NCBI GenBank assembly: GCA_026932145.1
Contig: JAIXKT010000048.1
Span: 1-58,170 of the forward strand
DNA from: Bacteroidia bacterium
GTDB lineage: Bacteria > Bacteroidota > Bacteroidia > J057 > JAIXKT01
DNA: 58,170 nt
Direction of reading: 5' to 3'
Shown: piece after piece, positions 12,512-18,252 of the stretch
Layout: each line of letters begins with the position of its first letter
How positions within the stretch are numbered: position 1 is the first letter of the stretch
The notes under the pieces: generated by a model
What the model saw: only the letters and a program-made list of their open reading frames with translations
Told to the model about the DNA's origin: nothing
The model's database searches: none
Position numbers and translations under genes: made by a program

Positions 12512-13753
12512 TTAATTAGCAACAAAATTATTTGTGTAAATTCCCGTATCTAATTTTTGGCGTACTGCTGAAAATGCTTCTAAGGTAGTCTGAACATCTT
12601 CTATGGAATGCGCAGCCGTTGGGATAATCCGCAGGATAATCACTCCTTTTTCTACAACAGGGTAAGTTACTATGGAAACGAAGATGTGGTAATTATGGCG
12701 TAAGTCTTTGGTTAGCAATGTGGCTTCAATTACTCCGCCTTTGAGGTAAACGGGTGTAACCGGTGTTGTTGTAATCCCAATGTCAAAGTTACGCTCGCGA
12801 AGCCCTTGCTGTAAAGCGTGAGTTATATCCCATAATTTTGTTCGTAACTCCGGATGATTCATCAATAATTCCAAACGCTTTAATGCACCGATAACTATAG
12901 GTAAGGGTAATGTTTTTGCGTAAATCTGGCTACGCATGTGGTAACGAAGATATTGAATAATCGTTTTGTCTCCGGCTACGAAAGCGCCTATAAGTGCCAT
13001 AGATTTAGCGAAGGTGCAGAATATTATATCTACGTCTTTTTGTACTCCATAATGTTCTGCTGTTCCGGCTCCTGTGGGGCCCATCACGCCGAAGCCGTGT
13101 GCGTCATCAATTAACAGGCGGAATTTGTACTTTGACTTTAAGCGTACTATTTCGTCTAATTTTCCGGTATCTCCTTTCATTCCAAATACTCCTTCGGTAA
13201 TAACGAGGATTCCACCGCCGGTTTGTTCTGCATATTTTGTGGCCTTTTGCAGGCGGTCATCTAACTGCGCCATATCGTTATGAGCAAATACAAATCGCTT
13301 TGCTTGGCTCAATAACATTCCGTCAATGATGCAAGCATGGGATAAATGGTCATAAACAATAACGTCTTTTCTATCTACAAGTGCTTGAACTATAGATACA
13401 AGTCCCTGATAACCAAAGTTTAGTAGATAAGCATCTTCTTTTTCCATGAAAGCGGATACTTTTTTCTCAAATTCTTCGTGGTAGTCAGTATTTCCGGTAA
13501 GCATTCTGGATCCCATTGGGTAGGCAAGCCCCCATTCGGTGGTGGCTTCGGTGTCTGCCTTACGGACTTCCGGGTGGTTAGCTAAACCTAAGTAGTTGTT
13601 TAAAGACCAGCAAAGTACTTCTTCACCCATGAAGTGCATCTTAGGCTGAATTTGCCCTTCTAACTTGGGAAAGCTAAAATAGCCGTGCCCCATCTCTGCA
13701 TATTTTCCCAAATCACTGCGCATATTACGCGCTATTTTGTCGAATATATCCAC
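12512..13753 (-). CDS. Alpha-oxoamine synthase (serine palmitoyltransferase / KBL-like)
   Basis: This PLP enzyme of fold type I belongs to the family that joins an amino acid to an acyl-CoA thioester: serine palmitoyltransferase, glycine C-acetyltransferase (KBL), AONS and ALAS. It shows DDAHGFGVMG, the His in YDHLSHACIIDG, and the PLP lysine in FCTFAKSMAL (about K250 from the start used here). In sphingolipid-making Bacteroidota such enzymes are often SPT, but the substrate cannot be read from sequence. Start: I chose the GTG at 13753 (413 residues). The GTG at 13789 lies upstream of a TATCTTTG box (13779-13786) and would not be transcribed from it. Confidence 0.8.
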   Translation of the reverse strand: MDIFDKIARNMRSDLGKYAEMGHGYFSFPKLEGQIQPKMHFMGEEVLCWSLNNYLGLANHPEVRKADTEATTEWGLAYPMGSRMLTGNTDYHEEFEKKVSAFMEKEDAYLLNFGYQGLVSIVQALVDRKDVIVYDHLSHACIIDGMLLSQAKRFVFAHNDMAQLDDRLQKATKYAEQTGGGILVITEGVFGMKGDTGKLDEIVRLKSKYKFRLLIDDAHGFGVMGPTGAGTAEHYGVQKDVDIIFCTFAKSMALIGAFVAGDKTIIQYLRYHMRSQIYAKTLPLPIVIGALKRLELLMNHPELRTKLWDITHALQQGLRERNFDIGITTTPVTPVYLKGGVIEATLLTKDLRHNYHIFVSIVTYPVVEKGVIILRIIPTAAHSIEDVQTTLEAFSAVRQKLDTGIYTNNFVAN

Positions 13754-13778
13754 TTGGTATTTTTGGTTGAAATTATCA

Positions 13779-13786
13779 CAAAGATA
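13779..13786 (-). promoter_or_regulatory. -7 element TATCTTTG for the alpha-oxoamine synthase
   Basis: This is a perfect TAnnTTTG match, 25 nt before the GTG at 13753. It lies inside the longest reading frame, and so supports the shorter product. Confidence 0.5.
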
Positions 13787-13958
13787 CACTGTTTTATAAC
13801 GTTGTTCCGGAAAAAATATAAATTATCTCTATACCTTGACCCAAGATAAATAAACCGTAATCTCATAACTTTGAGCGGATAAAAATAATTTATCAGTACA
13901 AACAGCCCTAAAACAGAATCTTTTTGTTTCCTTAGGAAACTTTAAACGGTTCGTTACG

Positions 13959-13966
13959 TAACTTTG
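13959..13966 (+). promoter_or_regulatory. -7 element TAACTTTG for the coiled-coil gene
   Basis: This is a perfect TAnnTTTG match ending 10 nt before the ATG at 13977. The 5' leader can be only a few bases long. There is no clear -33 TTG at the usual distance. Confidence 0.5.
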
Positions 13967-13976
13967 TTTTGGGAAT

Positions 13977-14918
13977 ATGGTTTGGGATAAGTTTCAAAAA
14001 AAAATAAAGCAATACGTTCATAAGCGAAAGTATGGTATTGATTTAGACCAGCGGCTGGAAGACCCTCTTTTAGCATTAGGACAGATTATGCGGGAGCTGC
14101 AAGCCTCTATTTCTGACCACACCAAAGGATTGGAAGTTACCAAACAGCGTCAAGCAGAAATCCGCCAGTATATTCAGCAATTTCAGCAGGAGCAGCATCG
14201 GCTGCTGCAAATACTTGACCGCGCCAGAAATAACCAAAATGTTTCAACCCACGAAATTCAACAGCAAATTGTTCTCTGCCAAAACCAAATCTCTCAGTAT
14301 GAACAGCTAAATCTTTCTATGGAAAACTCCATTAAAGAAGTAGAACAAGCTATCGCTCGATTGCAATTTAAACTTAATGAAACAAGGGCTAAAGAAGCTG
14401 TTTTAATCTTAAAAAGAAATACTGCCCAAACCGAAAAAGAATTAGGAAGGCAGCTCAGTCGGGTAGATTTAGATGAACAGGAAGCCGAAATTAATCGAAT
14501 GGAGGCCGAAGCCGAAGCTCTTCTCCAATTAACCCATACCAACGACCCACAGCAAGAACTTCAAGTATTAGACCAAGAACTTAAAAAGCAAATTCAATTG
14601 CAAGAAATTGAAAATCAGCTAATTAAACAAAAAAAAGAAACTGAAAAAAAACAAGCCCAATTATTAGATAAATACTTTGATGTTTTTAACCTAAAAACTA
14701 AAAAAGAAGAACCAAAACTACCTGATAAACAGCTATTAATAACAGATTTTTTCAAACCAAAAGATAAAAACCCAGATAATATAAAAAATTTCTTTTCGGA
14801 AGAAAAAAAATCTGAGTCATCAAAAGATGAGATTTTAAATTCATTTTTTGACCCAAAAGATGACTCTAAGAAAAAAAAACATCCTAAAGATTTATTGGAC
14901 GATTTTTTTAAGGACTGA
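13977..14918 (+). CDS. Coiled-coil protein, distantly PspA-like, with FF motifs at its C-terminus
   Basis: The 313-residue protein is almost wholly helical and very rich in Gln, Glu and Lys. The basic N-terminal helix (FQKKIKQYVHKRKYG) and LEDPLLALGQIMRELQASI are reminiscent of PspA/IM30 membrane-remodelling proteins, followed by long coiled coil to about residue 235. The tail (about 254-313) is acidic and basic in turn and repeats a short motif four times: ITDFFKPKDK, IKNFFSEEKK, LNSFFDPKDD and LLDDFFKD. This looks like a set of docking peptides on a flexible tail. It is followed 6 bases later by an unknown membrane protein, a likely partner. The PspA likeness is weak. Confidence 0.5.
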   Translation: MVWDKFQKKIKQYVHKRKYGIDLDQRLEDPLLALGQIMRELQASISDHTKGLEVTKQRQAEIRQYIQQFQQEQHRLLQILDRARNNQNVSTHEIQQQIVLCQNQISQYEQLNLSMENSIKEVEQAIARLQFKLNETRAKEAVLILKRNTAQTEKELGRQLSRVDLDEQEAEINRMEAEAEALLQLTHTNDPQQELQVLDQELKKQIQLQEIENQLIKQKKETEKKQAQLLDKYFDVFNLKTKKEEPKLPDKQLLITDFFKPKDKNPDNIKNFFSEEKKSESSKDEILNSFFDPKDDSKKKKHPKDLLDDFFKD

Positions 14919-14924
14919 AGATAA

Positions 14925-16079
14925 ATGAAAGTATTATTTAGATTTTTTAAAGCATCTTTTAGGTTATTAATAGATTTTTTGAAGGCTATAATCACCATAC
15001 CTTTACAGCCGTTACTATTTATTTTCAATCCAAATAAATTCAGTTCTAAGCAGTTATTGCGTTTTTTAATAGGAGTTTCTGCGCTGGAAATCTTGTTTTT
15101 GGTTGTTGTAGCTCTCGCCATTTCATCTGCGTGGAAAGATTTGCGCCAAAACGATACCAGACTTATTATCCGAGAATATTTAGACAGCAAGTGGACTGAT
15201 ACAGCGAGAATTGCATTTAAGGAGTCCTTGGTAAGTCGTTTTGCAAACGGAACTTTTCCCGAACCTACCGATACTCCGTATCAAATTCTCCCAAGTAAGA
15301 TAGTTATCACCTTTTGTGATAGCTTAGAGAACGCACTTCATAGCCAAGATAAATCCAAAAGTTCACACAATAAGATTTTGTCGTTGAAGGGACGTTGGTA
15401 TTTGGCTTTGTCTGAAAAAAGGGATTCCATCGAAAAGTTATCTGAATACAAAGAATTTGCCCAAAATCATAATTTCCAAAATCAATCAATTACTGAATAT
15501 ACGCAATATTTTGCACCTAATTTATATGCCTTTTGGTTGATTTTATTGATACCGGCTGTTGTTATCGGGCTGTATTATAATCTGAGTTCTATCAAACTCC
15601 TTTGGAATATCCCGAATATTTACTTTTCAGAAATTCCTGATTTGTATGATTTTAACCAATTTAGTTCACCTGTGGTGGGGGTGATTCGCTGGTCTTTTCT
15701 GATGCTCTATTTATTGCTGTTAATAAACATCGTGATTGGCATTGTAGCACTTATTTCTATGCTGATTGGTTCTGTTATTATTTTGATATTAGGGATACTT
15801 GTTGGAGTTATTATAATAGCTACCCTTGGGTTAATTTTGTTGTCAGATAATTTTACGGTGGGAAATTCCTTTGGTGAGGTATGGGACTGGGCTACTTGGC
15901 CAGTCCGGTTTTTTGGTTGGGAGGAATCTATCTTACATTCAATAGGAATCACGCCGGAATCATTTATCCTTACTCAGGCTACTATTGCGGTTATTTTACC
16001 GGCAATAATTTGTATTTGGCTTTTGAGGCATAAAGATGCGCTGTGGCAATTTGCTAACTCAAAGATTGGTAAGGAATAA
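14925..16079 (+). CDS. Unknown multi-pass membrane protein
   Basis: I do not recognise this 384-residue protein. It has a basic N-terminus, a membrane helix near residues 46-68, a soluble part (about 70-200) with several charged helices, and a cluster of hydrophobic segments from about 203 to the end (near 203-223, 255-315 and 345-370). The stretch at 262-310 is unusually rich in Ile, Leu, Val and Gly. It starts 6 bases after the coiled-coil gene and faces a convergent gene 27 bases on, so the two genes form an isolated operon. A role with the coiled-coil protein at the inner membrane is an inference from position only. Confidence 0.5.
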   Translation: MKVLFRFFKASFRLLIDFLKAIITIPLQPLLFIFNPNKFSSKQLLRFLIGVSALEILFLVVVALAISSAWKDLRQNDTRLIIREYLDSKWTDTARIAFKESLVSRFANGTFPEPTDTPYQILPSKIVITFCDSLENALHSQDKSKSSHNKILSLKGRWYLALSEKRDSIEKLSEYKEFAQNHNFQNQSITEYTQYFAPNLYAFWLILLIPAVVIGLYYNLSSIKLLWNIPNIYFSEIPDLYDFNQFSSPVVGVIRWSFLMLYLLLLINIVIGIVALISMLIGSVIILILGILVGVIIIATLGLILLSDNFTVGNSFGEVWDWATWPVRFFGWEESILHSIGITPESFILTQATIAVILPAIICIWLLRHKDALWQFANSKIGKE

Positions 16080-16106: not shown

Positions 16107-17147
16107 TTAACGTAGTAATCCTAAGACTTCGGTATCCTGCGGTAGATTATTTCCGTGCCATTTTCCCAAGCAAATTCCATTTTTCAGCAGCATAAATCCC
16201 AAGTTTGAACGTATCATCGTTTTCAGCACGGTTTGGTCCATACTTGCTACGCAAAAAGGAATTTTGTAATTTGCAATAGTAGCACTTTTAACGTCTCTGG
16301 TAGAGGCAGTAGCTCCTAAGACTTTTATTTCTTTGCGGGAAAGCCGTATTGCTAAGTTTGTAAGGCTCACATACTCATCACTATTAATGGAGGCCATATC
16401 CCGCATGATTATGATGAATGTATTTCCTTCAAACTCATCCATTTTGCAGTCAAGTCCAATGGGAGTATAATCTTTGGCTATAAATTCTCCTTTTTCGTTT
16501 AAAGTTGTGGTGTTATGTTTTATATCAGCACCTACTTTGTAGGGTAAAAAATCCAACATCGGTAAATTTGCCCAATTATACCAAGTTAAGAAACAAGTGC
16601 CTGCAAAAACGATGGGTACAAGTATATCATTAACAATATTTTCCCAGAAATTTGTGATTTTTTCTCTATGAACGAATAAGAAGCCAATCATGCCCATCAA
16701 CACAAGATCTTTTATGAAAGATTCAAGGGGGGTTAGTTTCAGCACATCGCCAAAACAACCACAATCCGAAACTAAGCCGGTTCTGAATGAGTATCCAGTG
16801 AGTAGCGTAAAAAAGATTATCATCAGCAGCATAGAACTTGTGGTGAAGCGGGGAACGTAGCCTAACAAAAGTGTAATAGCTGTAAAAACCTCAAAAATAG
16901 CAATGGCAGCAGCTATCGCTATCGAAAAAGGCGTAAAATGAATAAACCCCGGAAATAAGTTCCGCTCAAAGACGTGAAAGTACTCTTCTAACTTGTATGC
17001 AAAACCAGTAATGTCATTTACCTTGATGAACCCAGATATTAAAAACAAAATACCTACTAAAATCCGAAATGTCCATAATACAAACATTACTTTGGGATTA
17101 ACGACTTTTTTGTTTCTTAAAAATGGTGAATTCTTGGCAGCTACCAT
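16107..17147 (-). CDS. DoxX/MauE-like membrane protein with a thioredoxin-like C-terminal part (BT_3928 family)
   Basis: The 346-residue protein opens with four membrane helices in the DoxX/MauE pattern (FRILVGILFLISGFIKVND, FTPFSIAIAAAIAIFEV, then two more by residue ~165). It carries the loop VSDCGCFGD, whose CxC cysteines suit redox work. A further helix (~170-190) precedes a soluble thioredoxin-fold-like domain that lacks an obvious CxxC (only C234 and C278 remain). Bacteroidota proteins of this layout are annotated BT_3928 family; a part in envelope thiol chemistry is an inference. Its own promoter, TTG-N18-TAACTTTG, lies 20 nt upstream. Confidence 0.65.
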   Translation of the reverse strand: MVAAKNSPFLRNKKVVNPKVMFVLWTFRILVGILFLISGFIKVNDITGFAYKLEEYFHVFERNLFPGFIHFTPFSIAIAAAIAIFEVFTAITLLLGYVPRFTTSSMLLMIIFFTLLTGYSFRTGLVSDCGCFGDVLKLTPLESFIKDLVLMGMIGFLFVHREKITNFWENIVNDILVPIVFAGTCFLTWYNWANLPMLDFLPYKVGADIKHNTTTLNEKGEFIAKDYTPIGLDCKMDEFEGNTFIIIMRDMASINSDEYVSLTNLAIRLSRKEIKVLGATASTRDVKSATIANYKIPFCVASMDQTVLKTMIRSNLGFMLLKNGICLGKWHGNNLPQDTEVLGLLR

Positions 17148-17229: not shown

Positions 17230-17547
17230 TTAAGGCTGCTTTCGTTCGTTTTGAGAAAGCCTTTTAGCTAAGTTTAAAATAGAGTTTTGAAGCGATTTTA
17301 GGGTCTGGTTGGACTCAATGGTCTGGGAAACTTTGTTTCGCAGAAGTGCCCGAAAAGATCGCTCCAAATTGTATTGTTCTAAGCAAAATTCACAGGATTC
17401 AATTCGAGATTGGATGCTTTCCGCTTTTTCTTGGCTAATTTCTCCATCTAAAAGTTCTTCTAACTCTTGGATAATCTGCTCACATTCTTCTGAGGTGTAA
17501 GGAGAATCCGGCCTTTTAACGCCGTACTTGTTAGCTGGGTTGTTCAT
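17230..17547 (-). CDS. Putative anti-sigma factor, ZAS-like with an incomplete zinc site
   Basis: This 105-residue protein follows the ECF sigma gene by 36 bases. It has the anti-sigma layout: a first Cys (C22) before a DGEIS turn, then a CxxC (C52-C55) at the end of the next helix, in SCEFCLEQYNLERSFR. The zinc-binding anti-sigma motif normally has His four residues before the first Cys of the CxxC; here that place is Arg (R48), so the classical H-C-C set is broken. No membrane helix follows, so it would be soluble. I chose the ATG at 17547; the upstream TTG is unlikely. Sigma binding is inferred from position and pattern. Confidence 0.65.
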   Translation of the reverse strand: MNNPANKYGVKRPDSPYTSEECEQIIQELEELLDGEISQEKAESIQSRIESCEFCLEQYNLERSFRALLRNKVSQTIESNQTLKSLQNSILNLAKRLSQNERKQP

Positions 17548-17583
17548 ATAAAAAAAATACAAATTAGGGAGTGGTTAATAGTT

Positions 17584-18252
17584 TTACTTAGATAGATAAC
17601 CCATTGAAATTGCGTAGGGGATTAGCTTGTCTTTCATCATTTTTCTGGCACGGTGCAGCCTAGAACGAACTGTACCTATGGGAACGTCTGTGATTCTGGC
17701 TATTTCTTCATAGCTAAAGTTTTCTATATCACATAGAACTACAATCATTCTAAATTCATCTGGTAAGGCACTTAGGGCACCGGAAATTTCATCTCCTAAA
17801 GCGTTTTCAAATAATTTATCTCTTGCGTCAATGGATTCTGCATATCTGGCACGCCCTGTGTTTAGAAACAGTTCAGCCTCTTCATAATCTATTTTACCGG
17901 GTTCACGGGTAACTTTTCGATATTGATTAATAAAGCTATTTTTTAATATCCGAAATAACCATGCTTTTTCGTTTGAGCCTTTTTGAAAGCTATGAAAAAA
18001 ACGGAACGCTTTTAGGTAAGTTTCTTGCACTAAGTCATTTGCATCATCAGCATTACCTACTAAGCGGTAGGCAAAGTGATACAATGATCTTAGGTGCGGA
18101 AGCATCGCTGTTTCAAAAAAAGCGTATTCTTCTTCATTCAGCGTTGGGTCAGATTCATTATCCGATACCTCCAAATGGGTATCATTTGTAAAATCCTCCG
18201 CTTCTTCTATCCCTGAACTTGGGCGGCTATGGTATGTTGATCTTATAGTCAT
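17584..18252 (-). CDS. ECF-type RNA polymerase sigma factor
   Basis: The 222-residue protein has sigma region 2 (about residues 55-120: LYHFAYRLVGNADDANDLVQ, then the WLFRILKNSFINQYRK helix) and region 4 (about 160-215: LPDEFRMIVVLCDIENFSYE, with the helix-turn-helix IARITDVPIGTVRSRLHRAR). The ~50-residue acidic N-terminal extension is longer than in most ECF factors. The start ATG overlaps the stop of ppk as ATGA, so the sigma factor is translated together with polyphosphate kinase. An anti-sigma-like gene follows. Its target promoters cannot be told from this window. Confidence 0.9.
   Translation of the reverse strand: MTIRSTYHSRPSSGIEEAEDFTNDTHLEVSDNESDPTLNEEEYAFFETAMLPHLRSLYHFAYRLVGNADDANDLVQETYLKAFRFFHSFQKGSNEKAWLFRILKNSFINQYRKVTREPGKIDYEEAELFLNTGRARYAESIDARDKLFENALGDEISGALSALPDEFRMIVVLCDIENFSYEEIARITDVPIGTVRSRLHRARKMMKDKLIPYAISMGYLSK

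Follow-up and report, generated by a model that had tools for sequence, protein, structure and literature searches.

What might be encoded by a gene pair in which one product looks like a coiled-coil protein with a repeated FF motif in its tail and the other like a membrane protein of no recognized family? Such a pair lies in the window analyzed here (the whole 58,170-nucleotide stretch of DNA, which is contig C48 of a 3.48-Mb genome). The ORF map of the window bears out the layout given in the original prediction. The two genes are adjacent and co-directional, 6 bases separate the stop of the first from the start of the second, and the flanking genes, at 12512-13789 and 16107-17147, lie on the opposite (minus) strand. 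The pair and the sequence elements upstream of it are as follows.

13866-13873, + strand: TAACTTTG box, possible Bacteroidota-type −7 element, without a matching −33 element at the usual spacing
13959-13966, + strand: another TAACTTTG box, which ends 10 bases upstream of the start codon
13977-14918, + strand: first gene, divergent PspA/VIPP1-family (bacterial ESCRT-III) protein of 313 aa (Pfam, phmmer, profile and shuffles, Foldseek)
14925-16079, + strand: second gene, membrane protein of no known family, 384 aa (Pfam, NCBIfam, hydropathy)

Promoter signals and genome context

The pair had been credited with its own promoter, a claim that is weakly supported. The two TAACTTTG boxes upstream of the first gene speak for it. 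Against it, the spaced combination TTTG...TANNTTTG, in which TANNTTTG is the Bacteroidota −7 consensus, has no match upstream of the first gene, and a scan for sigma-70-type sites found none within 13790-13976. An own promoter for the pair is plausible, though unproved. A scan for terminator-like sites found none at the 3′ end of the pair. On the two strands of the whole window (1-58170), 112 copies of TANNTTTG were counted where 78 would be expected. For the spaced form TTTGN{17,22}TANNTTTG the count was 11, with 3.7 expected, and 0 of 100 shuffles had as many. The excess of TANNTTTG in the window is of the kind that a Bacteroidota-type promoter set would give.

The source genome is the sole representative of its family among the 22 genomes of the order that were searched. 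The MauE/DoxX gene downstream of the pair is present in all 22 of these genomes. Ten order neighborhoods were fetched around this gene, and no pairing of a PspA-like gene with a membrane-protein gene was seen in them by eye. Horizontal transfer of the pair was considered and set aside; its GC content of 0.35 to 0.36, compared with 0.39 for the whole window, is not telling. Elsewhere in the window, positions 17230-18252 (− strand) hold an ECF-type sigma factor gene (Pfam). By eye, the product of a small gene downstream of it has a CEFC pair and is possibly an anti-sigma factor.

Assignment of the first protein to the PspA family

The original prediction noted that the N terminus of the first protein faintly recalls PspA. 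That description proved an understatement, as phmmer, profile comparison, predicted helix order, and Foldseek all point to a PspA core. In Pfam, PF04012 (PspA_IM30) matched residues 23-221 with an E value of 4.1e-5 and a score of 23.7 bits (24.6 bits in the genome-wide search). This does not reach the cut-off of 33.9 bits, which is a threshold for automatic annotation and not a structural feature. Only one further Pfam family matched the first protein at an E value of ≤1. For a control coiled-coil protein, Pfam gave matches to ten unrelated coiled-coil families at an E value of ≤0.01, and PspA was not among them. In a class-wide search, coiled coils without PspA features scored E values of 5e-5 to 1e-3 with PF04012, so the E value of 4.1e-5 is insufficient by itself to establish PspA identity.

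When 295 other genomes sampled from the phylum were searched with phmmer at a threshold of E ≤5e-4, the first protein matched classical PspAs in 22 of them, with E values from 1.5e-8 to 5e-4. Twenty of the 22 matches were fetched (those of G421 and G486 were left out), and all 20 are classical PspAs. Each alignment is confined to the core, beginning at residues 22-26 and ending at residues 198-225; the best match (E = 1.5e-8) covers residues 22-212 with 24% identity. Two weak phylum matches, in G617 and G618, extend into the tail. By phmmer, no relatives of the first protein were found in the order (22 genomes), the class (395 genomes), or viral_contigs, and a phmmer search against the PDB gave nothing useful. 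An alignment of the first protein with five PspAs was used against genome_contigs, where 592 stretches matched the pattern and 0 were confirmed.

The relationship to PspA was also seen with profiles. A profile of the 20 classical PspAs aligned collinearly with the full first protein at 29.7 bits and scored the core alone at 32.2 bits. In none of 3 × 1,000 shuffles (1,000 each for full shuffling, shuffling in windows of 20, and shuffling that kept the hydrophobic pattern) was the core's 32.2 bits reached; the maximum was 17.9 bits. Profiles of 21 and 38 other PspAs scored the core at 18.2 and 20.1 bits, and 0 of 3 × 1,000 shuffles reached either value. The first protein has an EDP motif near its N terminus, as in the PspA family. 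Comparison of 11 PspAs with the single sequence in hhalign gave a weak match (probability, 5%; E = 0.008), with a profile that is perhaps too shallow.

The single-sequence AlphaFold model of the first protein has a mean pLDDT of 68, and the helix order is better supported by it than the geometry. Helices are predicted at residues 2-19, 23-85, 92-159, 166-185, and 191-240, and mostly disorder follows. The features of the PspA-like part are listed here.

13980-14033, + strand: predicted helix α0, residues 2-19, net charge +6 (AlphaFold, low pLDDT; aligns with the N terminus of the genome's ordinary PspA)
14043-14696, + strand: PspA core, predicted helices 23-85 (α1), 92-159 (α2+3), 166-185 (α4), and 191-240 (α5) (Pfam, AlphaFold, profile)

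An α0-to-α5 helix order is that of PspA. PspA has been described as six helices with an elongated hairpin (PMC12358876). The hydrophobic moment of the predicted α0 (0.44) was equaled or exceeded in 767 of 10,000 shuffles and is not significant. With Foldseek, PDB matches 1 to 9 were all VIPP1 chains, the best being 7o3w (E = 2.1e-4), and E. coli PspA 1-144 (4whe) ranked 31 with a TMt of 0.73. With VIA-align, VIPP1 ranked 22 (Z = 11.9), tied with many unrelated long-helix chains.

These results leave little room for the possibility that the first protein is an unrelated coiled coil that merely resembles PspA. Such a protein could give a Pfam score under the cut-off, as unrelated coiled coils of the class do with similar E values, and VIA-align fails to separate PspA from other long helices. 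It would be hard to reconcile with the phmmer E value of 1.5e-8 to classical PspAs, the core score that shuffles never reach, the collinear helices, the EDP motif near the N terminus, and the Foldseek ranking, and we consider this explanation highly improbable. Sequence comparison and predicted helix order, together with the Foldseek search, place the first protein in the PspA/VIPP1 family as a divergent member. What had been called an orphan coiled coil is instead a divergent PspA paralogue. The collections searched gave no close relative of either protein of the pair. By analogy with the family, membrane remodeling or scaffolding would be the natural expectation for its function.

The genome also encodes an ordinary PspA (C9:49857-50483). 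This PspA gene on C9 (L019:1384-2127) is followed by genes for a charged 137-aa protein and a 98-aa protein that is SCP2-like by eye. The ordinary PspAs of the order number 17 and are 239 to 254 aa long. In a tree of 59 sequences, the first protein, which has an odd composition, has a terminal branch of 8.24 changes per column. It groups with E. coli-like PspAs (84/85) and apart from those of its own order. Because this branch is so long, the placement is unsure. The order's PspAs make up a separate clade, whose branch is also long (6.29 changes per column). Given its long branch and odd composition, the first protein may have lost classical functions. In summary of the comparison with PspA/IM30 (VIPP1, PF04012), the first protein shares the collinear core, the EDP motif, the predicted α0-to-α5 order, and the Foldseek matches, but it differs in its very long branch, its sub-cut-off Pfam score, and a 73-residue FF tail, and it has a six-residue gap where the classical PspAs have GVGSDAF.

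Repeated FF motifs in the tail of the first protein

The tail follows directly on the last predicted core helix, and its features are as follows.

14697-14915, + strand: predicted disordered charged tail, residues 241-313 (pLDDT mostly <50; 26% GC)
14739-14756, + strand: FF motif 1, ITDFFK, residues 255-260
14781-14798, + strand: FF motif 2, IKNFFS, residues 269-274
14835-14852, + strand: FF motif 3, LNSFFD, residues 287-292, overlapping in part a short helix predicted at 283-290
14895-14912, + strand: FF motif 4, LDDFFK, residues 307-312, inside a short helix predicted at 303-312

Four tail motifs of the form hydrophobic-x-x-FF-(K/S/D) had been described from the sequence, and all four are confirmed, the first beginning at residue 255 (base 14739). 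A loose pattern, [ILVMFY]..FF[KSDENQ], which was chosen after the sequence had been seen, occurs in 6 of the 45 nonoverlapping ORFs of ≥100 aa in the window. Four of these ORFs have one copy each, the membrane protein has one, and the first protein has four in its tail. Neither the 200,000 residue shuffles nor the 50,000 dinucleotide-preserving DNA shuffles of the tail produced a case with four motifs. Since 0 of these 250,000 shuffles gives four, AT richness (26% GC in the tail versus 38% in the core) does not explain the motifs. A milder count, of four FF dipeptides in any context within an 81-residue tail, gave a shuffle P value of 0.0017. No DNA tandem repeat was found in the tail by TRF, and the codons differ in part among the four motif copies. 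The FF stretches of the tail may recall eukaryotic FFAT motifs.

Conservation of the tail motifs in homologs had been set beforehand as a test, and here the expectation failed: the FF motif is absent from all 20 fetched classical PspA relatives. The tail is therefore not a feature of the family, and as far as the collections searched go, it is specific to its own lineage. Among 18 further weak PF04012 matches of the class, no FF tail was seen by eye. A literature search found no repeated FF tail on a PspA-family protein in titles or the opening parts of abstracts.

From the motif statistics we infer that the tail could serve for multivalent docking, with which they fit. Two explanations would make do without a docking partner. 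In one, the tail is a low-complexity stretch without function, drifting at the end of a paralogue that is decaying or evolving fast, as the branch of 8.24, the low GC of the tail relative to that of the core, and its retention by none of the 20 fetched relatives might suggest. Both reading frames are open, however, the motif codons differ in part without a DNA repeat, and composition-keeping shuffles never yield four motifs, all of which make drift very unlikely. In the other, which we think distinctly unlikely, basic and Phe-rich segments of the tail insert into lipid directly and provide extra membrane grip with no protein partner. The 81-residue tail does contain 19 Lys and 10 Phe residues, and PspA-family proteins act on membranes (PMC12358876). 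Nevertheless, with 13 Asp and 6 Glu residues the tail is about neutral, motifs 3 and 4 are net −2, and the fixed spacing within the motif would point to a protein pocket and not to lipid.

The membrane protein and a proposed partnership

If the tail docks to a protein, the product of the second gene is a candidate. A hydropathy profile places hydrophobic segments of the membrane protein at about residues 48-66, 200-218, 246-313 (long; could cross twice), and 348-366, with a soluble stretch of 133 residues at 67-199. The AlphaFold model of this protein is unusable (pTM, 0.24). The view that it belongs to no recognized family was upheld: Pfam has no family at an E value of ≤1, NCBIfam gave a weak unrelated match and none above threshold, and neither PADLOC (nothing at E ≤0.1) nor PHROGs (a single weak match, E = 0.032, function unknown) gave a useful match. 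At its N terminus, LFRFFK (residues 4-9; 14934-14951, + strand) fits the loose tail pattern. About 0.1 loose-pattern matches would be expected in the membrane protein at the rate of the window's other ORFs, and the likeness may be due to chance, given the four matches in those ORFs.

Relatives of the membrane protein were found in none of the 21 other genomes of the order and not in viral_contigs or genome_contigs. The class search matched 1 of 394 other genomes (G141; E = 8.6e-4), over 77 residues inside a long ORF. This ORF looks like a P-type ATPase by its DKTGT, and the short match inside such an ORF was rejected as a relative. The phylum search matched 23 of 295 other genomes at an E value of ≤0.1 (best, 0.0029). 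Five of these loci were opened and the matches were likewise rejected; two are MlaD proteins (Pfam), and by eye the other three are a third ORF of the MlaD kind, a transporter-like ORF, and a prenyltransferase-like ORF. In all, the order (22 genomes), the class (395), the phylum (296), viral_contigs, and genome_contigs yielded no credible relative of the membrane protein. Conserved co-occurrence of the two genes, the other test set beforehand, therefore lends the partnership no support.

A PspA-family gene likewise stands beside a membrane-protein gene in the cases of E. coli PspBC, B. subtilis YdjG/YdjH with YdjI, and mycobacterial PspM. Known membrane partners of PspA are covered in two papers (PMC11237479 and PMC8581546), the second of which describes localization of PspA in B. 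subtilis by the integral membrane proteins YdjG/H with YdjI. The Pfam (E ≤1) and NCBIfam searches of the membrane protein studied here gave no match to PspB, PspC, PspM, LiaF/LiaI, YqiJ/YuaF, DUF350, or similar PspA partners, at a sensitivity that may leave a remote likeness unseen. This particular pairing was not met in the sections consulted of the 2024 PSP survey (PMC11237479).

Our main reading, to which we assign a probability of roughly 55%, is that the pair constitutes a lineage-specific PspA variant, namely, an inner-membrane ESCRT-III-like scaffold that is held or regulated via its multivalent tail, probably by the membrane protein. The first gene product is a fast-evolving PspA paralogue. 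By analogy with the family, it would form polymers and lie on the cytoplasmic face of the inner membrane via the basic N-terminal helix; helix α0 is reported to bind the membrane and PspA to form rods (PMC12358876). Beyond this core the protein has the tail, an addition of about 73 residues, predicted to be disordered, whose four FF motifs are not in classical PspA. Along a polymer, such tails would display a weak and possibly helix-forming peptide many times over, and a partner could be bound by avidity. The presumably cotranscribed, multipass membrane protein would be the most likely partner, as an anchor, receptor, or regulator, and it might place the scaffold at particular membrane sites. 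It is proposed as the likely partner only because of the 6-base operon. The pair would then be a PspA-plus-membrane-partner module, specific to the lineage, alongside the ordinary PspA of the genome. Interest in it is moderate because both docking and partnership rest on one genome.

The tail also invites comparison with systems in which short C-terminal motifs are read by other proteins. Tails of eukaryotic ESCRT-III proteins carry MIM motifs, which MIT domains read. The first protein likewise has a flexible C-terminal short-motif tail on an ESCRT-III-superfamily core, but its motif differs from MIM and an MIT domain (PF04212) was not found in the genome at an E value of ≤0.1. A second parallel came from the class. 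Among 20 fetched loci with sub-threshold PF04012 matches, 10 encode membrane-anchored PspA-like proteins and 10 encode other coiled coils. All 10 membrane-anchored proteins (L026, L027, L028, L029, L037, L038, L039, L042, L043, and L044) have a linker of variable length and, at the very C terminus, Yxx[LF][LF][DEKQ], a conserved motif that is perhaps used for docking. These PspA/Snf7-like proteins resemble the first protein in having a PspA-like core, a linker, and a C-terminal motif with the spacing of the FF motif; unlike it, they have N-terminal transmembrane helices and one motif. The likeness is best seen as parallel and not as descent, because their profile does not match the first protein (−6.7 bits; 109 of 1,000 shuffles scored as high) and a search of the 22 order genomes with a 9-row alignment of them found nothing beyond ordinary PspAs and a single weak partial match. 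Directly upstream of most of the membrane-anchored PspA-like genes lies a gene for a coiled-coil protein of about 180 to 240 aa. PMC11237479 describes PspA and TM-bearing Snf7 homologs in operons with solute-binding-OmpA and ABC genes, and the C-terminal Yxx[LF][LF][DEKQ] motif was not seen in the sections consulted.

These parallels bear on a different assignment of roles, in which the FF tail would serve, in the manner of ESCRT-III, for recycling or as an adaptor code and would be bound by an ATPase or chaperone of the cytosol, with the membrane protein as a separate client or regulator. The C-terminal tails of ESCRT-III proteins have many modes of binding to MIT-domain proteins (PMC9477494), and two of the four FF motifs are in or beside predicted short helices. 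The Yxx[LF][LF][DEKQ] ends of the 10 membrane-anchored proteins suggest that tail motifs are a recurring device, and classical relatives lie beside CesT/Tir-type peptide-binding chaperones in all three neighborhoods scanned. Several results argue the other way. The whole genome contains 0 MIT domains at the threshold used, by a search in which a diverged reader would be missed; no AAA+ partner was seen by eye near five membrane-anchored PspA-like genes, some of which have an ABC ATPase nearby; and the membrane-anchored profile does not extend to the first protein. On balance, we judge an adaptor code of this kind to be unlikely.

Docking of the PspA-like scaffold to the membrane protein remains our preferred reading. 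In its most specific form, the four FF peptides would be a tail code for which the adjacent gene supplies a dedicated inner-membrane receptor, an ATPase-free, two-gene means of recruitment that arose independently of MIM-MIT docking; this form is tentative and, in our view, rather doubtful. If it is true, the same-spaced Yxx[LF][LF][DEKQ] ends would make tail codes a recurrent feature of the PspA-like proteins of the class, and a countable array of one motif beside a single candidate receptor would make tail-peptide recruitment testable with two genes.

Two further observations concern other PspA-like genes. Classical PspAs of the phylum adjoin TY-Chap1/CesT-Tir-like chaperones in 3 of 3 neighborhoods scanned (L149:4692-5162, L154:5798-6238, and L158:5507-5935), and a PspA-chaperone (TY-Chap1/CesT-Tir) dyad is described in PMC11237479. 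In the genus g60, a recurrent false PspA match of about 302 to 307 aa (L030, L031, L032, L033, L034, L036, and L040) has an N-terminal hydrophobic helix, a coiled coil, and a C-terminal domain.
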